Below, piece after piece: positions 55,232 through 64,000 of a stretch of 64,000 bases of DNA. The stretch is taken from contig NZ_JACAWV010000023.1 in the NCBI RefSeq assembly GCF_013390595.1, forward strand, positions 1-64,000, written 5' to 3'. This DNA is from Rhizobium sp. RM. Its GTDB lineage: Bacteria; Pseudomonadota; Alphaproteobacteria; Rhizobiales; Rhizobiaceae. Under the pieces are notes generated by a model. The model made no database searches, had not been told where the DNA came from, and worked only from the letters and a program-made list of their open reading frames with translations. Each line of letters starts with the position of its first letter. Position 1 is the stretch's first letter. The translations under genes were made by a program, and so were the position numbers.

Positions 55232-55306
55232 TGTTTATTGCCATCCTGCAAGTTTTCACCTATGGACCGCTCAACAGCACAGTCTTTTCCGTTCGGAACC
55301 CGCCTC

Positions 55307-55831
55307 ATGTGGAGCAAACCCACGTCCCGCACCCTCATCGATGACGCTCTGCAGCTTCACTATGAAGACCTTTGCCGGGCGATGGTCCGGCGTGGGCATA
55401 CGGCGGGTATCTCGCAGGAGATCGTCCACGATCTGTATTTACGTCTGACCGGAAAACCTCGATTGCCTGAAAACCGTTCGCTGATACGCGCATTTCTGGT
55501 TCGGGCCTGCGCCAATCTCGGCATTGACCGCCTTCGCCGCGAACAGTTCGAAAGGAAGCTCTTTTCCGGGAGCGCCGAGGAGGCACTCGCTGTTCCCCAA
55601 CCCGTAATCGATGCCGAAAGTCTTGCGGACAGGGAGCACCGGCTGAACATTTTGCGTCAGGCAATCATGAAGATGTCACTCCAGAGAAGACAGGTCTTCC
55701 TGGCGAGCTGTATCGGCGGCCTCAATTCGGAAGAGATTTCAAAGCGAAGCGGCATTACAAAAAACATGGTGGATCGCCACCTGCGCAAAGCCTACCTCCA
55801 TTGCCTGGAGTGCCTAGAGGACACGTTATGA
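55307..55831 (+). CDS. FecI-type ECF sigma factor
   Basis: A 174-residue sigma-70 family protein. Region 2 (LHYEDLCRAMVRRGH ... SQEIVHDLYLRL) and region 4 (SLQRRQVFLASCIGGLNSEEISKRSG) are present. The start is uncertain: in-frame ATGs at 55262 and 55238 add up to 23 residues and none has a clear ribosome site. It overlaps fecR by ATGA. It should direct RNA polymerase to the downstream receptor gene when the receptor signals. Confidence 0.88.
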   Translation: MWSKPTSRTLIDDALQLHYEDLCRAMVRRGHTAGISQEIVHDLYLRLTGKPRLPENRSLIRAFLVRACANLGIDRLRREQFERKLFSGSAEEALAVPQPVIDAESLADREHRLNILRQAIMKMSLQRRQVFLASCIGGLNSEEISKRSGITKNMVDRHLRKAYLHCLECLEDTL

Positions 55832-56781
55832 CAGGCACATCAGTGAAAACAGCGACCGCACTTCGCGCGCAGGCTATCGACCTCTTCCTTCAGCAGCGTG
55901 ACCGGCCGGATGACATAGTCCTTGCCGCAGATCTTGAGGCATGGCTTGCAGCCAACGAACAGCACGCGGCGGCTTTTGAGCGTGTTCGATGTCTTATGGG
56001 CGATGCGGGTCTTCTGGTGACGAACGACCATGCCTTTGTTGTTCGGGCAACGCGTAAGAGCAGCCTCACCAATGGCAAGATCGCGACAACCCTTGCATTC
56101 GGCGTTACGCTCGCCGCGGGTCTTTATCTTGCCGACATCCCGATGCGGTTGCGTGCGGACCACATGTCCGAAACGGCGGAACGGCAGATCGTCACGACGC
56201 CAGATGGGTCGACTATAACGCTTAATGCCAACTCCGCCATTGCCTTGCGCTTCACCGCAACCGAGCGTCAGGTTCTACTATTGCGCGGAGAGATTTTTGC
56301 CCAAGTTGCTCCCGATGCTATGCGACCGTTCTCGGTCGTGGCGGCAGGTGGCACGACCACCGCGCTCGGCACCGCCTTCGACGTCAACATGCACGAGGGC
56401 ATGACAAACGTTGCTGTTCTTGAGCACAGCGTTTCTGTTGATCTGGCGGGACAGCATGATGTCAGCCGACTGCAGGAAAACCAACAGGTGAGCTACAAAT
56501 CGGATGGAACGATTGGCGCGATCGAAGCGGTTGATCCGACATCGATCGGTGCGTGGCGACACGGCCGCTTTGTTTTCGAGGACAAGTCGCTGGCGGAGGT
56601 TGTCGGAGCGTTCCAGCGCTACATTCCAGGTCGCATTATCGTAACGCAGGAAAAGCTTCGTCAAAAACGCCTGTCGGGTAATTTTGACTTGTCGGATCCG
56701 CAGGCAGCTCTCATCGATCTGGCCACAGCGCTAGACGTGCGTGTGATGACAGCTGGTCCCTTCCTCACAGTGCTCTATTAA
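55828..56781 (+). CDS. FecR-type anti-sigma/signal-transducing protein
   Basis: A 317-residue inner-membrane protein. A cytosolic N-terminal sigma-binding domain (DUF4880-like, LEAWLAANEQHAAAFERV) is followed by one helix (IATTLAFGVTLAAGLYLA) and the periplasmic FecR domain (TPDGSTITLNANSAIAL, LRGEIFAQV, AGGTTTALGTAFDV). The C-terminal STN-like part contacts the receptor. It relays receptor occupancy to the FecI-type sigma factor. Confidence 0.9.
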   Translation: MTGTSVKTATALRAQAIDLFLQQRDRPDDIVLAADLEAWLAANEQHAAAFERVRCLMGDAGLLVTNDHAFVVRATRKSSLTNGKIATTLAFGVTLAAGLYLADIPMRLRADHMSETAERQIVTTPDGSTITLNANSAIALRFTATERQVLLLRGEIFAQVAPDAMRPFSVVAAGGTTTALGTAFDVNMHEGMTNVAVLEHSVSVDLAGQHDVSRLQENQQVSYKSDGTIGAIEAVDPTSIGAWRHGRFVFEDKSLAEVVGAFQRYIPGRIIVTQEKLRQKRLSGNFDLSDPQAALIDLATALDVRVMTAGPFLTVLY

Positions 56782-56865
56782 TTTTTTCCTCGGGGTGTCC
56801 TTAATGAACCGGCTCATTCGTTCGGAAAGCAGAAACATATCTGCTTCACCCGAAAGGTGCCCCTG

Positions 56866-59364
56866 ATGAAAAGAAACAAGCCAGTTGCAAGCCGCAAGAG
56901 CGTAGCAACTCTTTTTCCGCTTCTGTTTGCCAGCGTCGCAATCTTGGCCGTTCCACACAGCGCCGATGCGCAGCAAATGCAGACGGTTGCCATCGACCTG
57001 CCAGCTGGCACCATGGCAGGCGCACTCAACCGTCTTGCCAGCCAGTCCGGGCTACAGCTCGTCTATGATGCATCGATCGCAAACGGCCTTCGAAGTGCTC
57101 GTGTCAGCGGAACAATGACACCGACAGAAGCGCTCGACAGACTGCTTTCAGGCACCGGTATTCACTACCGCGTCATCGGTGGCAAAACGATCAAGATGGA
57201 GAAAACAGCGTCTTCCGCAGATACATCCGCCGAAACCGGCGAGACGGCTCTTGCGCCAATCACGATCAAAAGCGGTCGTGTCTTCAATGGTGATGCTCCA
57301 AGTGTCAGCGAAATCAGTTCAGAAAAAATTGAGGCGGCCCAGGCCAACTCCCTGCCACAGCTTCTGTCACGCACGCCAGGCGTGACCGCCGGGGGCGGTG
57401 TCAGGGCGCAGGGGCAGACCTTATCCATTCGTGGGTTCGCGCGCCAATCCGACACACGCATCCTGCTCGACGGTGCGCCCAAGAACTTCGAACGGTATGA
57501 TCAGGGAACTGTCTTTATCGATCCGGAACTCTTAAAGCGCGTAGAGATCCAGAAAGGCGCAACGTCCGTCCGTTATGGCAACGGTGGCTTCGGCGGCACC
57601 GTCATCATGGAAAGCAAGACAGCCTCGGACATGCTGAACAAAGGTCAGACGTTCGGTATGTGGGGCAAGACAAGTTATCAAACCGCAAACCGCCAGTTTC
57701 TTGAATCCGGTGCCATTTATGGAAAATCGGATTTCGGCGGACCTGTGACCTACGACGCACTGGCATCCGCGATCTGGCGCAAGAGCGATAATGTTCGCGT
57801 GGGTGGCGGCCAGGTCTATGACGCATCGAACGACAAGCTGACGTCCTTCTCCGCTAATGCAGGGGCCGCCTACGATGGTCATGAACTGCGTGGTTCGGTG
57901 ATTTACGGAAAATCTGCTGACTACGGCCCACTTGCGGCCAATCGCGGCGATCTTGGCGTGACCGCTTTCAGCATTTCACGCTACGGCGCTGAGCAAGCAA
58001 GATTGCGTGCGTTGGCTTGGCGCGACATGAAAGACTTCTCCTCCACCTTGAAGTATGCCTACGACGGGGACAGCGACCTTGTGAATTTCAAGGCGATGGC
58101 AAGCTTCTCGGCGACCAGCCTCGATATGACACGCCCGACAATTGCCGGTTTTGTACCTACCGCCTCACTTGGTGGCATGAACGACGAGACGAAATATACA
58201 GACTTCAAACTTGAAGCAGAAAACACATCCAATTTCGAACTCGGTGGTGTCTCGCACGTCGCCAATTACGGCGTCCAGTACATGCGCCATGACCGCGATT
58301 CGCTGATGTATGACATCGGCAACCGAACGAGTGCCCAGTACAACTATGGACATTATGCGTCCTGGATCAAACCTGAGGGCACGCAGGAGACGATCTCAGC
58401 TTTTTTCCGGGACGAGATCGGCTTCACCGACACCTTCAAGCTAACACCGGGGATACGCTTCGACCACGTTCGCTCCGAGGGTGTTCCGAACGCAGCCCCC
58501 CGTTACAACAATCCTCTTGCTGGTCATGATTACTCCGCCGTCTCCCACAGCGGGGCGACGCCAGCACTCAGCGCCCGTTGGGAGTTAACACCCAATGCGA
58601 CATTCTATGCTGACTGGGCATACGCGATGCGCGCGCCGGTCATTGATGAACTCTACTCAAGCCAGAGCGTGGCAAGCACGGCATCTGCGACATCGCGCAA
58701 TTTGGAGGTCGAACGAAACAACAACTTCAATCTGGGCGTCTCCCAGCAGTTCGACGATGTATTCACCAGTGGCGATACCATACGTGCATCGATTGGTGGG
58801 TTTTACAATCACGTCACGAACCCAATCACGCGCCGTTTCGGTAGTGCTAACCTCGCACGTGTAAGCAATGTCCCGTTCTACTGGAACACGCCTTCTTACA
58901 AGATTTACGGACTCGAGTTCTCGACCAGCTACGATTCGGAATATGTGTTCGGAAATCTTGGTCTTTCATGGATGAATGGATCGCGCCATGGTGCGATCAA
59001 CGATGTCTACGGTCCCGATACCTACGCAAATGATCTTTCGCCGTTTACGGCGACAGCGCAACTTGGCTACAAAATTCCGGATTGGGATCTGTCACTAAGC
59101 TGGAATGGTCTGTTTGTGGCCCATCAAGAACGCACTCCCGTCAATCAGGGTACGGGGTACTTTTACGCCCGCCCGGAAAGCCTCGGATATGCAGTGCACG
59201 GCATTTCGCTCGACTGGACACCAAAGGAGGGTAAATTTGCCGGCACCGAGGTCCATGCCTCGATCGATAACATCTTTGACAAGTATTATATGCCTTATCT
59301 GAGCGATGGCATCGCTGCGATGCCAGGGCGCAATTTCAAACTGTCGATCAGCCGCAAATTCTAG
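56866..59364 (+). CDS. TonB-dependent siderophore receptor with N-terminal signalling domain
   Basis: An 832-residue outer-membrane receptor. A signal peptide (cleavage near ADA-QQ) precedes an STN/secretin-like signalling domain at ~47-100 (AGALNRLASQSGLQLVYDAS), then the plug (~125-240; SISGRV-like start, LSRTPGVTAGGG, SIRGFARQSDTRILLDG) and a 22-strand barrel ending LSISRKF with the expected terminal Phe. The signalling domain matches its FecI/FecR partners. The start is the ATG after GAAAGGTG. No siderophore biosynthesis genes are nearby, so it probably takes up a foreign siderophore or haem-like ligand. Confidence 0.92.
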   Translation: MKRNKPVASRKSVATLFPLLFASVAILAVPHSADAQQMQTVAIDLPAGTMAGALNRLASQSGLQLVYDASIANGLRSARVSGTMTPTEALDRLLSGTGIHYRVIGGKTIKMEKTASSADTSAETGETALAPITIKSGRVFNGDAPSVSEISSEKIEAAQANSLPQLLSRTPGVTAGGGVRAQGQTLSIRGFARQSDTRILLDGAPKNFERYDQGTVFIDPELLKRVEIQKGATSVRYGNGGFGGTVIMESKTASDMLNKGQTFGMWGKTSYQTANRQFLESGAIYGKSDFGGPVTYDALASAIWRKSDNVRVGGGQVYDASNDKLTSFSANAGAAYDGHELRGSVIYGKSADYGPLAANRGDLGVTAFSISRYGAEQARLRALAWRDMKDFSSTLKYAYDGDSDLVNFKAMASFSATSLDMTRPTIAGFVPTASLGGMNDETKYTDFKLEAENTSNFELGGVSHVANYGVQYMRHDRDSLMYDIGNRTSAQYNYGHYASWIKPEGTQETISAFFRDEIGFTDTFKLTPGIRFDHVRSEGVPNAAPRYNNPLAGHDYSAVSHSGATPALSARWELTPNATFYADWAYAMRAPVIDELYSSQSVASTASATSRNLEVERNNNFNLGVSQQFDDVFTSGDTIRASIGGFYNHVTNPITRRFGSANLARVSNVPFYWNTPSYKIYGLEFSTSYDSEYVFGNLGLSWMNGSRHGAINDVYGPDTYANDLSPFTATAQLGYKIPDWDLSLSWNGLFVAHQERTPVNQGTGYFYARPESLGYAVHGISLDWTPKEGKFAGTEVHASIDNIFDKYYMPYLSDGIAAMPGRNFKLSISRKF

Positions 59365-59420: not shown

Positions 59421-59812
59421 CAGTCAAAACGCCTCCCTTTCACGACAAAACTCCCCGTCGGCGCGCACAGGAGATCGTTTACCGAAGCGTCCATGCACCT
59501 TTCCCGACGAGTTGCTCGTACGAGCAGCCGATGTCCCTAGTGAACAGATCCCGTGGCATCGGCAACATTCTGCGCAACGAATGTCATAAAATCGGAAACG
59601 AAGAATTTGGACTGTTGTTACCGAGCATATCACATTTCACAACGACACCGTTCTCGCGAGTCAAGCACCAATTGTGACTGAAGGCTAAGGTCTAGCCGTG
59701 CACAACCTGCTTTTTTTGCAAGGTCGACAGACATGGTAAGGATCACTTGAGAATTAGAGGCCCGGAAGCCGAACCCACTATTTGCTCGCTGAATAATCAT
59801 TTTCGAGGCATA
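59421..59812. other. gene-free stretch
   Basis: About 390 bases with only short overlapping frames that show no domain, ribosome site or conserved composition. No clear promoter or repeat was seen. It lies between the iron-uptake unit and a pseudogene block and may contain more decayed sequence. Confidence 0.5.
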
Positions 59813-60160
59813 TCAATTTTCCCTGCTCGTGCATCGTTCGGCCTCAAACTTCTTTACTCGTTCCGGCCCGAAGCAGTCCGTTCGATCATTTCCCAACGTA
59901 CCAGCCGGTCGGCCGAAGACGACGTTGTCGTCAGGGCGATCCGAAGGTGCCGGGCGACATTCCCACTTCGGATGTTCATCGAAGAAAAGAAGCGCCTGAA
60001 TGTCGAGGACGTTGAGCGAGTTCTGCATGACTGCCGCTGCCTCAGCGACCTTGAAGCGACGGGTAAAGCGTTCAAACGCTATGGCGAGTTTTTCGATCTG
60101 TTCGGGCAAAGGTTCTCTTGGCTTCACCAAAAGCGTTGTGTACTCTCGCCTGCATATCAT
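59813..60160 (-). pseudogene. MarR-family regulator, frameshifted and truncated
   Basis: The first frame gives a MarR-type N-terminus (REPLPEQIEKLAIAFERFTRRF and NVLDIQALLFFDEHPKW). The frame shifts near 59955, and the continuation NVARHLRIALTTTSSSADRL-VRWEMIERTASGRNE is the winged-helix recognition region of MarR proteins. The usual C-terminal dimerisation helices are missing. It was probably once a divergent regulator of the ACT-domain/hydrolase genes that start 80 bases away. Confidence 0.65.
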
Positions 60161-60242
60161 CTTGGAAGATGAAGCTCCCGCCGGACGCAAATACTTGCAA
60201 TGCGGGAATGTCCTTCTTCAGTCAAACTGTGGAGGGACTCTT

Positions 60243-60632
60243 GTGAGCCTAAATTTGAGAATTCGTTTTGTCCCAGGTCTCTATGCCGTTTCGCGTTTAG
60301 AGGCAAAAGAGGATGTTCCCGCTTGGCTAAGCGGCCCGGGTTTCAAGGCCGTCATATATTCAGATGACGAGGTAACTCTCGTCTGCCTTGAGGAACGCGT
60401 GCCTAGCGGGATCACAGCCGAGACGGGCTGGGCTTGCCTACGCACTATTGGCCCTTTCCCGTTCGACGCGGCTGGCATCGTTAAGTCCCTCATCACTCCG
60501 CTTTCTGACAACGGAATTGGTGTGTTCGTTATTTGCACGTTCGACGGAGAGCATGTGTTGATCCCTGCAAGCGAGGCGAACAGCGCAAAGCGTTTCCTCG
60601 AAATCGCCGGACACACGGTGGAAAATGACTAG
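60243..60632 (+). CDS. ACT-domain protein
   Basis: A 129-residue protein made of two ACT-like halves. LNLRIRFVPGLYAVSRLEA begins the first, GWACLRTIGPFPFDAAGIVKSL and GIGVFVICTFDGEHVLIPA form the second, as in the CASTOR/ACT_7 regulatory group. Small ligands such as amino acids are the usual effectors. GTG is preferred because GGAGGG lies six bases before it; a longer frame upstream overlaps the MarR remnant. It overlaps the hydrolase pseudogene by 8 bases, showing an old operon. Confidence 0.75.
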   Translation: MSLNLRIRFVPGLYAVSRLEAKEDVPAWLSGPGFKAVIYSDDEVTLVCLEERVPSGITAETGWACLRTIGPFPFDAAGIVKSLITPLSDNGIGVFVICTFDGEHVLIPASEANSAKRFLEIAGHTVEND

Positions 60633-61051
60633 AATACTTTTTCTTCCGGGGTCAGTCGGCAGCGCGGCATTTTGGAAGCCGGTGGCCAGGCACATGGAGC
60701 TGGATGGTGTATTTTTCGATTGGCCTGGCCTTGGTGATGAACCGGCCCGAACTGATGTCGGCAATATCGATGGTATTGGATCGCATGAACGAACCGGTCA
60801 ACATCGTCGCTCAATCGATGGGCGGCATCGTTGCCATCAAAGCAGCATTGGCGGCACCTCGAAAGATAGTTCGTCTCGTATTGACAGTCACCTCCGCTGG
60901 CGTGCCTTTTGCGGACCTTGGTGGATCGATAAGCAACGTGTTTAAAAGCAATTTTATGGTCGCGGGGTTTTACCTTGGCGTGACAGATCCAGCTGTAAAA
61001 TTGGTTGGCTGGGTAAGATCTCATTTTTCTCCAACAAGTGATAGATGGTAA
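60625..61051 (+). pseudogene. alpha/beta hydrolase, frameshifted and 3'-truncated
   Basis: The first frame (MTRILFLPGSVGSAAFW, FFDWPGLGDEPARTDV) is the start of an alpha/beta hydrolase with the oxyanion loop. Near 60770 the frame shifts to MVLDRMNEPVNIVAQSMGG, which holds the nucleophile elbow (QSMGG), and IKAALAAPRKIVRLVLTVTS. Sequence after PFADLGGS no longer looks like the family and the acid and His of the triad are missing, so the 3' end was probably replaced by unrelated DNA. Confidence 0.75.
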
Positions 61052-61176
61052 GCAAAATTGGCATGTTGCGCATTTGGGATAGCTTCGCCAGGCTGTTTAG
61101 TAATGCGACAGGTGGCTGAATAAGGCCGGTTTTGGCCCGAAGCGGTCATTCGTGGCCAAATCGGATCCCAATTTGG

Positions 61177-63714
61177 TCAGGATTCGACGAACCATTGAGA
61201 AGGTCCCATTACTCTTTCCGTCGTCCCGTGAGGGTCTTTATTAAAGGATGCAGCCTTTTGCAGTCTGCGTATTCCATAGCCACCGCTGTCTAATGTGTCT
61301 GAGGGCTGGTAGCCAACCGGTATCCTGAAGAAATTATTGATCTGCCAAAAGGCACAGTTATCTCTCGCGGTGCGTAGCTCAACAACCACGGTAAACATTT
61401 CGTCCATGCTGATACGCATGAGACCGTTCGTCCCGAGCAAGGCACTGTCGTCGAGACTAATCTTACATACCGATATAGGTGTCTTTCCGATTGTGTGGGT
61501 TGTGATTGTGATCTCACGAAACCGCTTATCTGGCCAATGCAGATTTATCGTTCGGCTCGCCGGAATGTTATCGGTCGGATAGATCAGGCTGTGGTTCTGC
61601 GAGCTGCCGTCGACGATAAACGCGTTTTCGGTACGTCTAAGACCAGATACGCCAACATAAGAATGAGCGATATCATCGACCTCGATATGGAGGCGACTAT
61701 ATGTGATCTCGGCCATGCCCCGTGCGACCGCTGTTTCGCAATAGTAGTCATTTAGCACCGCGTCAGGGATTGTTCTGGTCAAGTATCTCCGGATTTTATC
61801 CACGCGTCCACTTTGACCCGCCAGCATGATTGACGAAAAGTTCCGTTTGTAGGCGACGTCGGTTTTTTCAGCTTCCTCGTTAGTCTCGCCGATGATGTCG
61901 TCGTGCTCTCGTGCAAAACTGATGCAATCCTCGACACATTTCACGTATCTCTTGAAGAGGTTGATTGTCAGATCATTTAGATCCTTCCGAGTGACCTCTA
62001 TGTGTAATGGTTTGACGACGCCACCCGCGAACTCAACGTCCTCAAGCGAGATGGTGAAGGCCTCTGTGGTAGACAGCGCAACTTTTGCGCGCTCTACCTC
62101 TCGCTCTAAGCTGAGCTCAGAATAGCTTATTACGGGCGACACACCGAGCCGCCTAGATTTGATCAACCCAACAACAAAGTCCTTAAGCGCAAGATCAAAA
62201 TCGATACCTCCGAGCTTTGCATCGCCACTCGACGCAAGAACCTTAAATTCGATGCGCCTAGTGAGAGCATCCTCACTATTGAGGTCGATACTCAGCGCAT
62301 CGTCTTCGAGTTCCCATTCTATATCCTCAACCTTGGCGTAAACCACTGCCACGTCAAGCGTGCCCCCTCCCATATCGACAACCAAAACATGTTTATCGGA
62401 GTAAGACACTTCACTGGCGCGCTGTCCGGTTTGGAAGGAGGATAAGACGTTGAATGCGGCAGCCGTCGGTTCAGGTATGATTCTTTCGACCCGAACGCCG
62501 GTAGCCTGGACGCAATCGACAATTCGCGACACGTCTAGAATATTGTAGTCGGTTGGAATTGAAAGAACGCAACGCCGGGCTTTTGTTCCCGTTGTGTGCT
62601 GGAAGGTGTCAATGAGCGAGCGTATGACAAGCATTGCATACTGATCGGGTCGCAGCCCCTTATCGTCAGCTGCGTCTTCGAAAACGCGCGATAACAAACG
62701 CCTCTTCGCATATCGGGATGTAACACCAGAAAAGTGGTCAACGCCAACCTCGTAGTTCCCATCCCCAAAAAACCTTACCGTGGAAGGCATGCAAATTTTG
62801 CCGCTACCATCTCTGATAAACTCGTAGCCGGAAGCCGTTCCATATGCCAAAATCGATTTGGTCGTTCCAAAATCAATAACTACAGGTAACGGGAAGTCTG
62901 GAAGAAATGTCTCCTCCTGCCTGAGCTTCACCTCTCGGCCCACCCACGGTGGCAAATAAAGGCGATCCGAGAGCTTCGATATCGGGAGGACGAAATCTCT
63001 AGCATTATCGCCCAAGATCGAAACTGGCGTTTGAGAAGGAATACGTAGCCGAGCGCAGGTGCTGGGCACGTGCCTTGCCAAAAAGTCTCCGAGTTCGTGC
63101 AATCGGCGGCAGTCAAATTCCAGTTCAAGCGCTTCTGATAGACAGTAAGTAAAGACACCCCCTTCAATATTGCCGTGCTCGCGAGCCGCCGCCCTAGCAT
63201 CCGTAGAGAAGAACACCGCGAGGTTCGAACCTTCCGCGAATGAGATGAGTGGAATTAGCGGTTCAGTCGCTGCCGGATAATTGAAGTTATCCCGGCAGGC
63301 ATCAATGAAAACGAGAATCGTCTTTGCGTTGATCTCGCAACATTTTCGTATCAGTGTGGCAAGTGAAATCGACGTTTCAGGAAGGGCGCCATAAACTGCG
63401 TCCTGAGGGATCAGATAGTCTTGACCTTGATCCGATCGGAAGCCGTGTCCACTGAAGTAGAAAACGAAAGCCTCCAGCGGTGGACCATTCCGAAACTGTT
63501 CGAACGCATCAAGACGCTTAAATATGGTGCTGCGACTTGACAAAAAATCTATCTGATTATTATCGCTCGTACAACAAACCGCAGCCTCCTTGTCGAAGCT
63601 CGAGGTTTTAATGAATTGTCCGCGCGCCTTTCTTGCGTCGGCGTCGGCGTACGATAGAGATGGTATCCGAGGGTCACTATATTCAGCGACACCGACAAAA
63701 AGGCCCGCCCTCAT
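61177..63714 (-). CDS. caspase-like protease fused to Hsp70-type ATPase
   Basis: An 845-residue protein. Residues 1-245 are a caspase-like (C14/metacaspase) domain: MRAGLFVGVAEYSDPRIPSL, FVFYFSGHG with H90 and ILVFIDACRDN with C140, so the catalytic pair is intact. After a ~30-residue linker, ~278-675 form an Hsp70 nucleotide-binding domain: VVIDFGTTKSI (phosphate 1), IIPEPTAAAF (connect 1), LVVDMGGGTLDVAVV (phosphate 2), KLGGIDFDLAL and IMLAGQSGRVDKIRRYL (adenosine). Residues ~685-800 look like a substrate-binding beta domain (IYPTDNIPASRTI). It is a cytosolic, single-chain protease-chaperone. It is 10 bases after the upstream small gene, whose GAGG serves as its ribosome site. Confidence 0.9.
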   Translation of the reverse strand: MRAGLFVGVAEYSDPRIPSLSYADADARKARGQFIKTSSFDKEAAVCCTSDNNQIDFLSSRSTIFKRLDAFEQFRNGPPLEAFVFYFSGHGFRSDQGQDYLIPQDAVYGALPETSISLATLIRKCCEINAKTILVFIDACRDNFNYPAATEPLIPLISFAEGSNLAVFFSTDARAAAREHGNIEGGVFTYCLSEALELEFDCRRLHELGDFLARHVPSTCARLRIPSQTPVSILGDNARDFVLPISKLSDRLYLPPWVGREVKLRQEETFLPDFPLPVVIDFGTTKSILAYGTASGYEFIRDGSGKICMPSTVRFFGDGNYEVGVDHFSGVTSRYAKRRLLSRVFEDAADDKGLRPDQYAMLVIRSLIDTFQHTTGTKARRCVLSIPTDYNILDVSRIVDCVQATGVRVERIIPEPTAAAFNVLSSFQTGQRASEVSYSDKHVLVVDMGGGTLDVAVVYAKVEDIEWELEDDALSIDLNSEDALTRRIEFKVLASSGDAKLGGIDFDLALKDFVVGLIKSRRLGVSPVISYSELSLEREVERAKVALSTTEAFTISLEDVEFAGGVVKPLHIEVTRKDLNDLTINLFKRYVKCVEDCISFAREHDDIIGETNEEAEKTDVAYKRNFSSIMLAGQSGRVDKIRRYLTRTIPDAVLNDYYCETAVARGMAEITYSRLHIEVDDIAHSYVGVSGLRRTENAFIVDGSSQNHSLIYPTDNIPASRTINLHWPDKRFREITITTHTIGKTPISVCKISLDDSALLGTNGLMRISMDEMFTVVVELRTARDNCAFWQINNFFRIPVGYQPSDTLDSGGYGIRRLQKAASFNKDPHGTTERVMGPSQWFVES

Positions 63715-63724
63715 TGGCAGAACC

Positions 63725-64000
63725 TCAACGAGGGGCTAGCTTTACTTCTATTGCTCCTTTCGCTTCCGCGCCTGCCGCAGCGACGAGGCGTACTTCCCCT
63801 TTGACCGTGATCTCAAATTTTAAAGAGATTTCTTTCAAAGTCAGGCTTTTAGCACCAAGCTCAGAGCTATCGAATACGGTAGAAACTGTCTGCAAGGCTG
63901 CTCTGAATTGATCCCTCAATGTTTCGGAGCTGATTTGGGTGAGAACACCCTCAGCGCCTCGCTGAGCCATTGATTTTGTGCCTTCATTATCTGCACCGGC
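63725..64000 (-). CDS. peptidase-co-occurring (Pepco/Trypco-like) small protein, 5' end outside window
   Basis: The visible part ends the protein: TLRDQFRAALQTVSTVFDSS is an amphipathic helix, then KSLTLKEISLKFEITVKGE and RLVAAAGAEAKGAIEVKLAPR form a beta pattern. It resembles the C-terminus of small Pepco/Trypco-type domains that accompany caspase-like or trypsin-like proteases in predicted conflict systems. An ATG exists at 63970, but the frame stays open to the window edge, so the start is probably beyond it. It sits just upstream of the protease-chaperone in the same direction. Similarity is by eye. Confidence 0.55.
   Translation of the reverse strand, partial: AGADNEGTKSMAQRGAEGVLTQISSETLRDQFRAALQTVSTVFDSSELGAKSLTLKEISLKFEITVKGEVRLVAAAGAEAKGAIEVKLAPR

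Follow-up and report, generated by a model that had tools for sequence, protein, structure and literature searches.

A caspase-type protease joined to an Hsp70 nucleotide-binding domain in a Pepco-paired gene of Rhizobium sp. RM

Does the 64,000-nucleotide stretch of Rhizobium sp. RM DNA analysed here (hereafter, the window) encode a protein in which a caspase-type protease and an Hsp70 are parts of the same chain and, if so, what might such a protein do? In animals, Hsp70 and caspases occur as separate proteins and affect one another during apoptosis; a fusion would place a caspase and its Hsp70 switch on a single bacterial chain.

Results

A single open frame encodes both halves of the fusion

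The fusion gene (61177-63714, minus strand) is one uninterrupted frame of 845 codons without an internal stop, and Pfam recognised in its product both Peptidase_C14 (residues 5-216, E=1e-9) and HSP70 (best stretch residues 489-602, E=1.1e-29), each above the curated cut-off (Table 1). Because residues 226-308 contain no ATG and alternative starts there are limited to TTG234, TTG254, GTG258, GTG262, and TTG289, a gene-calling error in which two genes were misread as one is unlikely; we rejected it and the single gene stands. The central claim of the original prediction, that a caspase-type domain with intact H90 and C140 is joined to an Hsp70 ATPase domain, was borne out by Pfam, by AlphaFold2 modelling with Foldseek, and by the single open frame: one chain joins a caspase-type protease to an Hsp70 nucleotide-binding domain.

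Table 1 Coordinates of the fusion protein's parts, its partner gene, and the surrounding segment
Feature	Position in window	Strand	Evidence and remarks
Caspase-like (C14) domain, aa 1-247	62974..63714	-	Pfam, AF2, Foldseek; H90 codon 63445-63447, C140 codon 63295-63297
Linker, aa 248-275, ATG start absent	62890..62973	-	pLDDT <50 at aa 251-260 of caspase model
Hsp70 nucleotide-binding domain, about aa 276-668	61711..62889	-	Pfam HSP70, PDB sequence matches, residue map, Foldseek
C-terminal tail, aa 669-845	61180..61710	-	pLDDT <50 from aa 683 on
Pepco gene, 98 aa	63725..64000; start at contig position 64021 (21 bases beyond window)	-	Pfam PF24393
Genome-specific segment holding the pair	59569..64000 (59569-64345 of contig)	.	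Comparison with same-species and same-genus genomes, G+C

The two halves were folded as separate models, since a full-length mixed alignment superimposed caspases on Hsp70s. The AlphaFold2 model of the caspase half, based on an alignment of 22 sequences, had a pLDDT of 84 and a pTM of 0.86, and Foldseek returned the MALT1 paracaspase as its best match (E=4.6e-13) with metacaspases next. H90 and C140 are invariant across all 58 rows of an alignment (A4) of the window protein and 57 Pepco-linked caspases described below, and the window caspase also keeps 16 further invariant columns. With this modelled fold and the catalytic dyad, the caspase half belongs to the caspase superfamily (C14), its protease activity being putative. 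PADLOC matched the fusion with its generic 'caspase' model alone (E=4.9e-7).

By sequence, the Hsp70 half matched mortalin, DnaK, and BiP in the PDB (E 1e-17 to 1e-15). Foldseek matched its structural model to DnaK at E=4.3e-25, a value to be read with the weakness of the model (mean pLDDT 58) and the presence of DnaKs in the underlying alignment; 30 of 41 ten-residue blocks average at least 60 in model residues 1-410, and model residues 413-575 lie below 50. Structural comparison recovered both the caspase fold and the actin-like Hsp70 fold. The claim that all nucleotide-binding motifs are present held in part: DFGTT (281-285), EPTAAA (415-420), DMGGGTLD (447-454), and LGGIDFD were found, but AGQSGR (632-637) is a degenerate form of the last adenosine motif and R338, adjacent to K337, aligns in the residue map with the catalytic Lys of Hsp70, which we take to be K70 of E. 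coli DnaK. We conclude that this half, which contains the phosphate-1, phosphate-2, and adenosine motifs, is an Hsp70 nucleotide-binding domain of the actin-like fold, in which the exchange of Lys for Arg at the catalytic position may leave little ATPase activity. The tail had been taken for a putative substrate-binding region, a claim for which comparison with the Hsp70 substrate-binding domain gave no sequence support (hmmsearch E=0.09; hhalign probability 0.2%; best p=0.023 of 9 shuffle tests, with 3 further targets dropped in which the linker motif was absent); it may be a degenerate, putative domain of this kind.

The fusion gene is paired with a Pepco gene

An intact 98-aa frame precedes the fusion gene on its strand at a distance of 10 bp, and the 81 aa from an inner Met match Pfam Pepco (PF24393) with E=1.1e-14 and 55 bits against a cut-off of 27. 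This protein also matches Trypco1, below that family's cut-off. The gene, which lies partly beyond the window, went unnoticed in the first reading. With Pepco directly beside a same-strand peptidase gene, the locus is a Pepco-peptidase pair.

We compared the locus with a census of 80 Pepco loci, 74 of them cyanobacterial. A caspase ORF is present within 300 bp on the strand of Pepco at 58 of the 80, and the gene order is that of the window for 51 proteins (gaps of -47 to 30 bp) and reversed for 8; the remaining 22 loci include 4 with a caspase fragment and 3 with a CHAT protein beside Pepco. Alignment A4 holds the window protein and 57 of the 59 Pepco-linked caspase proteins, the short L086 and L125 being left out. 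Across its 58 proteins the C-termini include FGE-sulfatase in 35, GUN4 in 10, and WD40, PBP1A-like, and HSP70 in one each, the last being the window protein; none of the 57 other Pepco-linked caspases carries an Hsp70 tail. An Hsp70 HMM built from 10 sequences, including L027 (wrong frame) and L028 (probably a false N-terminal extension), gave three matches over the Pepco loci, namely a DnaK-type gene in L127 and two pieces in L113, all of them separate genes, and tblastn for Hsp70 over the 80 loci agreed in finding L127 and L113 only. A Pepco homologue, a caspase-SAVED gene, and a CD-NTase gene also stand in a row on a plasmid of Oscillatoria nigro-viridis; this pair is additional to the 58 census loci. 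A 90-aa gene upstream of a Sinorhizobium caspase-FGE gene was considered as Pepco and rejected as a Gly/Thr/Ser-rich repeat, Pepco there lying downstream.

Like the window, the Pepco-linked caspases of Rhizobium, Sinorhizobium, and cyanobacteria (caspase-FGE, -GUN4, and -SAVED) combine a small Pepco gene with a same-strand gene for an N-terminal caspase, share its His and Cys positions (SGHG or AGHG at about 90, DACR at about 140), and differ in a swapped C-terminal domain; in the window protein, by contrast, Hsp70 fills this C-terminal slot and the caspase falls outside their clade. Its caspase domain is 21-26% identical to those of 21 Pepco-linked caspases. In a tree from which two intended outside caspases, L022 and L023, were left out (motif not found in the extracted frame), the window caspase and 4 other rows lie outside a 30-row clade (98/95) containing the Pepco-linked caspases; a very long branch connects the window caspase to this clade (85/80), a placement that the program called unsure. 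Because the window caspase branches outside the Pepco-linked clade, its pairing with Pepco may be independent.

By Pfam profile, and with the genome itself included, the genomes with Pepco number 1 among 289 from the class, 2 among 398 from the phylum, and 2 among 247 from the family; among 14 control genomes, Methanosarcina acetivorans alone matches, below the cut-off. Caspases of the phylum resembling the caspase half (E<=1e-8) were found in 10 of 299 genomes, again including its own. Ten of the best-scoring other Pseudomonadota caspases were examined, the nine others of this set and one from G055, a genome of the 100 relatives compared; in all ten the caspase domain is C-terminal, and neither Hsp70 nor Pepco matched in the stretches examined near them.

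The pair lies in a genome-specific segment

The segment that holds the pair measures 4.8 kb and has a G+C content of 0.51 compared with 0.57 for the rest of the window. The one same-species genome compared (G958) matches through 59568 and resumes at 64346, and in eight same-genus genomes the genes flanking the segment are only 64-238 bp apart. Both the fusion and Pepco are absent from all nine genomes, searched whole, where matches to the fusion were partial and of the DnaK type. Frames read by eye place a sigma/FecR/TonB-receptor cassette, an ACT-domain gene, a broken alpha/beta-hydrolase, and sugar-catabolism genes in the neighbourhood; the broken hydrolase sits in the same segment as the pair. 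Among the neighbouring frames, read by eye, we recognised no defence gene beside the pair and no GrpE, J-protein, or McrB/McrC gene, and the frames between 54 and 64 kb and over a further 16 kb, likewise read by eye rather than by family search, included no recognisable CD-NTase.

A second caspase-Hsp70 fusion was not found in the collections searched

Among the matches listed for 101 genomes (its own and 100 relatives) and 398 genomes of the phylum, a full-length fusion appeared in its own genome alone; these searches cover about 500 genomes in all, and a distant fusion could hide among the DnaK matches. Pattern scans of genome and viral contigs, a method that detects close relatives only, gave no relative. 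Of 72,556 plasmid records, 184 match somewhere and none has a single place covering 80% of the fusion; for phages, the figures are 22 of 50,697 records and again none at 80%. The genome, plasmid, and phage searches all favour close relatives. Nor was a caspase-Hsp70 fusion found in the portion of the open-licence literature consulted, including the section of Kaur et al. on EACC1-caspase systems.

Comparison with known systems

In System 4 of Kaur et al. (2020), EACC1 accompanies proteins that begin with a caspase and end in one of up to 50 C-terminal domains and, as far as the text of that paper describes it, the system shares with the window a small 5' gene followed by a caspase with a variable C-terminal domain (PMC7159879). 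Its partner is described there as the transmembrane EACC1, whereas the window partner matches Pepco, and an Hsp70 tail is not named in the text of the section on EACC1-caspase (PMC7159879). The NCBIfam model caspase_w_EACC1 matched at 3.5e-11 with 43 bits, short of its cut-off of 140, and with this score and Pepco as the partner we rejected membership in that system. The CBASS-like operon of O. nigro-viridis shares a Pepco homologue, an N-terminal caspase, and a domain in the C-terminal sensor slot, but Pfam detects no SAVED in the window protein and no CD-NTase was recognised at the locus in the frames read by eye; CBASS membership was rejected on these grounds.

Hsp70 is itself present in predicted conflict systems. 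According to the portions of the sources consulted, CoCoNuT and related McrB systems contain an Hsp70-like NBD/SBD unit in a predicted defence protein, as does the window, but fused to the McrB GTPase or McrC rather than to a caspase (PMC11090510), and GAP1-N2 GTPase systems likewise include Hsp70, with HSP70, GrpE, and DnaJ as separate proteins, a GTPase at the centre, and no caspase fusion mentioned in that text (PMC7159879).

Discussion

Our working hypothesis, to which we give somewhat less than an even chance, is that the pair forms a two-gene, horizontally acquired conflict module for defence or programmed death, in which a protease has an Hsp70 switch where relatives would place a sensor. 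The setting of a regulated executioner, already suggested by the original prediction, is favoured by association, namely by the Pepco neighbour, the variable C-termini of Pepco-caspase pairs, the CD-NTase context in Oscillatoria, and the accessory segment, but not by any recognised defence gene beside the locus. At rest, the protease would be kept off, with Pepco as an adaptor or inhibitor. The Hsp70 module, filling the slot held by SAVED in the Oscillatoria relative and by lectin-fold FGE in 35 of 57 relatives, would act as a nucleotide-gated sensor of polypeptides that are unfolded or foreign, or perhaps of RNA. On meeting its ligand it would shift its nucleotide state or conformation and bring caspase domains together; in this way chaperone binding or ATP state, as originally proposed, might switch the protease on, and the active protease would cut targets of the host or toxin-like ones, with death or growth arrest of the infected or stressed cell as the outcome. 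A protease with a C-terminal sensor is described for Lon-SAVED, which is switched on by a cyclic oligonucleotide (PMC9704534, as far as consulted). We consider it rather doubtful that the protein is a fully self-contained, chaperone-gated suicide caspase, with the Hsp70 nucleotide state as recognition and timing switch for foreign or unfolded protein (or RNA) and with Pepco braking it or acting as adaptor; a slow Arg-substituted ATPase could in that case be a timer that lets the cell recover before death. Counting against a defence module are the lack of a recognised defence gene nearby, the position of the caspase outside the Pepco-linked clade, the rarity of Pepco in the phylum (2/398 genomes), the generic PADLOC match, and the C-terminal caspase domains, without Pepco or Hsp70, of the best-scoring other Pseudomonadota caspases. 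The view of Kaur et al. that variable C-termini are effectors (PMC7159879) and the Arg at the catalytic-Lys position, with the little ATPase activity it may leave, speak against an Hsp70 switch, as does a tail whose peptide binding is putative.

The slot occupied by Hsp70 can also be read as holding cargo. An auto-processing caspase, signalled by Pepco, might free Hsp70 as an effector or decoy that, for example, sequesters phage proteins or competes with DnaK, much as Kaur et al., in the text consulted, view the variable C-termini of EACC1-caspases as effectors, not sensors, and propose their deployment by autoproteolysis (PMC7159879). However, 35 of the 58 tails are FGE-type, and their C-type lectin fold is proposed as an antigen sensor in related systems in the part of that source consulted (PMC10907252). 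The linker of about 28 residues, poorly ordered where modelled, would suit such release, whereas the Oscillatoria relative has SAVED in this slot, a domain that Pfam names as a sensor, and we regard the cargo reading as unlikely. Hsp70 domains classically bind unfolded polypeptides, and it is conceivable, if less probable again, that the protein is a quality-control chaperone-protease whose Hsp70 binds misfolded host proteins for the caspase to trim or degrade, unrelated to phage or cell death. Partners of chaperone type, prefoldin and Clp_N among them, do appear in caspase surveys in the parts consulted (PMC3501461, PMC8283722), yet the segment is absent from nine related genomes, no GrpE or J-protein gene was seen in neighbouring frames by eye, the protein is paired with Pepco, the catalytic Lys is replaced, and a peptide-binding domain is putative at best.

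That replaced Lys, together with the one degenerate adenosine motif, resembles what is thought of CoCoNuT-type NBD/SBD units, which would bind ATP and hydrolyse it poorly; because sensing of RNA or a ribosome ligand is proposed for Hsp70-like units on McrB/McrC proteins in or near CoCoNuT (PMC11090510, in the part consulted), the window Hsp70 might likewise sense such a ligand rather than peptide, with the protease answering to aberrant RNA or translation. No RNA-binding feature came to light in the protein and no McrB/McrC gene was recognised nearby in the frames read by eye, and we judge this very unlikely. To a chance fusion in decay, without function, we assign the lowest probability of all: the copy is the single one known, with no second example in our searches, the segment also contains a broken hydrolase, and the catalytic Lys is changed, but 845 codons remain open, the caspase dyad, 16 other invariant columns of A4, and the main ATPase motifs are retained, and an intact Pepco frame lies 10 bp away.

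Predicted conflict systems of bacteria repeatedly feature caspases whose C-terminal partners can be swapped, the partner being a possible sensor or a possible released effector. What is new here is Hsp70 in the C-terminal slot of an otherwise known type of Pepco-caspase pair, apparently a novel form of a predicted bacterial self-destruct device. Because Hsp70 biochemistry is readable through nucleotide state, peptide binding, and J-protein stimulation, the fusion would make the question of sensor versus effector directly testable. The Pepco census is useful on its own for finding candidate defence proteases.

The caspase–Hsp70 chain and its partner gene

The fusion gene is a single frame of 845 residues without a stop, in which Pfam finds both Peptidase_C14 (E=1e-9) and HSP70 (E=1.1e-29) above their curated cut-offs. 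The caspase half models as a confident fold (pLDDT 84, pTM 0.86) with the MALT1 paracaspase and then metacaspases of plant, trypanosome and yeast as top PDB matches, and the dyad H90/C140 had been correctly named in the original prediction. The Hsp70 half leads to mortalin, DnaK and BiP by sequence and to DnaK/BiP by fold, the model behind the fold match being weak (mean pLDDT 58; fair across most of the nucleotide-binding domain and below 50 from aa 683, residue 413 of the Hsp70-half query P0004, on). This half had been called a complete Hsp70 ATPase; the domain is present but its completeness was overstated, as the alignment puts R338, adjoined by K337, at the conserved ATPase lysine position, gives AGQSGR as the last adenosine motif versus VGGQTR in the aligned DnaK row, and reveals insertions of ~21 and ~18 residues between motifs. 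The region presented as a putative substrate-binding tail (669-845) has no significant match to the DnaK substrate-binding domain; a BLAST alignment with a Paracoccus Hsp70 runs on into it, a suggestive hint of tail kinship only. Because no ATG lies between residues 226 and 308, separate production of an intact Hsp70 from this gene is unlikely.

The fusion gene is preceded, at a distance of 10 bases and on the same strand, by a 98-aa gene that was missed earlier and starts 21 bases beyond the window. Over 81 aa from an inner Met it matches the small partner-gene family Pepco (PF24393) at 55 bits versus a cut-off of 27. Pepco is rare in the phylum of the window genome (2/398 genomes, with 2/247 in the family and 1/289 in the class, own genome counted each time).

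Pepco partners and variable caspase tails

When genome_contigs was scanned using an alignment of four Pepco sequences, 117 of the 132 pattern matches proved to be relatives, and the census comprised the best 80 of these 117 relatives' loci, 74 of them cyanobacterial by title; because three of the four query sequences were caspase-linked Pepcos and the fourth was that of the window, the sample is biased towards the caspase-linked kind. A same-strand caspase ORF lay ≤300 bp from Pepco at 58 of the 80 loci (59 proteins, some truncated by contig ends), downstream in 51 (gaps -47 to 30 bp) and upstream in eight. Four of the other 22 loci had a caspase fragment directly adjoining Pepco (L081, L130, L139, L143), seven a caspase at greater distance within the locus (L071, L077, L085, L093, L101, L135, L136) and three a CHAT protein downstream (L090, L116, L119), and the methods used found neither caspase nor CHAT in the remainder. 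Because CHAT–GUN4 proteins directly follow Pepco, Pepco takes CHAT as well as caspase partners. A CHAT protein also precedes a weaker Pepco homologue (2e-5) on a Streptomyces plasmid, and plasmids of Rhizobium jaguaris and Sinorhizobium meliloti have the order caspase–FGE-sulfatase, then Pepco. The Pepco homologue of Oscillatoria nigro-viridis is a member of a CBASS-like operon, opposite which genes of ThiF type and E2 type are encoded on the other strand. Patatin-like phospholipases, one of which adjoins Pepco, are an effector type known from defence systems; the gene adjoining Pepco in genome G048, without a Pfam match, is presumably a trypsin-like protease, judged from its GDSG motif. Unfused DnaK-type genes lie within ~3 kb of Pepco at two of the 80 loci, which may be coincidence.

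For tails, 58 proteins were scanned, the window's and 57 of the 59 Pepco-adjacent caspases. Peptidase_C14 matched in all 58, and their caspase alignment has 18 invariant columns, His90 and Cys140 among them. Among the matches listed (all but the 42 rarest of 67 matched families), the C-terminal module was FGE-sulfatase in 35/58, GUN4 in 10/58, and WD40 repeats, a PBP1A-like transglycosylase/transpeptidase and HSP70 in one each, the last being the window protein. The caspase–PBP1A-type fusion would be striking, if real.

Features in the window and at comparison loci (L-numbers, fetched stretches)
Feature	Coordinates	Remarks
Caspase–Hsp70 fusion	61177-63714	minus strand
Alpha/beta-hydrolase gene, truncated	60625-61051	split across two frames; strand opposite to fusion; in genome-specific segment
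ACT-domain gene	60000-60629	adjoins broken alpha/beta-hydrolase
Sigma factor, FecR-like and TonB-receptor genes	55238-59364	consecutive; frames read by eye
1.7-kb insert in same-species genome G958, containing the ParD-like frame	L153:1260-2956	
PBP1A-type caspase fusion	L131:10374-13379	1001-aa frame; Pepco-linked; attributed from C-terminal sequence
Pepco homologue, caspase–SAVED, DncV-like CD-NTase	L062:5848-9427	consecutive; Pepco by tblastn, 2e-11; Oscillatoria nigro-viridis plasmid pOSC7112.01
Patatin-like phospholipase gene	L056:8288-9768	adjoins Pepco; genome G451
CHAT–GUN4 proteins	L090:4785-5894; L116:10285-11604	directly downstream of Pepco
DnaK-type genes	L127:5932-7791; L113:13207-15071	unfused

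A second caspase–Hsp70 chain was not found in ~500 genomes, 72,556 plasmids and 50,697 phage records, and the main texts of two caspase surveys (PMC3501461, PMC8283722), by term, do not name one. We rate the Hsp70-tailed caspase as new within an already known kind; because only close relatives come within range of the large scans, its absence elsewhere is not proven.

Possible roles and kinship

Given the observed parts and their order, we infer that Pepco may restrain or recruit the fusion protein, that the C-terminal Hsp70 module would be a sensor and that the caspase domain, a predicted protease, would be the executioner. The sensor reading is suggested because the Oscillatoria relative has SAVED in the position taken here by Hsp70, because Lon–SAVED is a studied protease with a sensor (as described in part of PMC9704534), and because the FGE type has a C-type-lectin fold and domains with that fold are proposed, in a section of PMC10907252, to sense antigens in related systems. 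Passages of Kaur et al. (PMC7159879) read such tails the other way, as released effectors, and we keep this as a rival; on a third reading, the Hsp70 might sense RNA, as proposed for CoCoNuTs in part of PMC11090510.

The EACC1-caspase proteins described in Kaur et al. (PMC7159879, in part) have the same pattern of constant caspase and variable tail. The window protein differs in scoring 43 bits against a family cut-off of 140 and in having Pepco in place of EACC1, and its sequence does not establish membership of that named family; all 58 proteins match the EACC1-caspase model at E<=0.001, a threshold other than the 140-bit cut-off. A tree of 35 caspases places that of the window outside a 30-row clade (98/95) of 23 Pepco-adjacent caspases and seven others of the same loci, with just four further rows outside. 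Its junction with this clade has values of 85/80, and its branch, 3.4 changes per site long, was flagged by the program as unsure. Because of this position and long branch, the Pepco–caspase–Hsp70 pair would either have split off long ago or have been assembled independently.

Genomic setting

In the window genome, 5.2 kb separate the TonB-receptor gene from the next gene (glycosidase-type by frame reading). The receptor was found in 14 of 39 genus genomes, the own and same-species ones included; among the 12 others compared, 64-238 bp lie between both flanking matches in eight (G005, G012, G015, G019, G026, G031, G036, G037), and the second flanking gene was not found beside the receptor in four (G007, G010, G014, G029). 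In the single same-species genome, G958, the match breaks off at 59568 and resumes at 64346; the intervening 1.7 kb is unrelated DNA and includes a frame that we take to encode a ParD-like antitoxin. Neither the fusion nor Pepco occurs elsewhere in nine genomes (eight of the same genus and G958), and the G+C of the segment is 0.51 versus 0.57 in the rest of the window. The segment occupies an insertion site whose cargo differs between genomes, a pattern expected of accessory defence genes; no further defence genes were recognised beside the fusion. Part of Kaur et al. (PMC7159879) describes VMAP caspases with alpha/beta-hydrolase neighbours; the window's alpha/beta-hydrolase gene is disrupted and lies on the strand opposite to the fusion. 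By frame reading, the sigma factor, FecR-like and TonB-receptor row appears to be a cell-surface signalling cassette.
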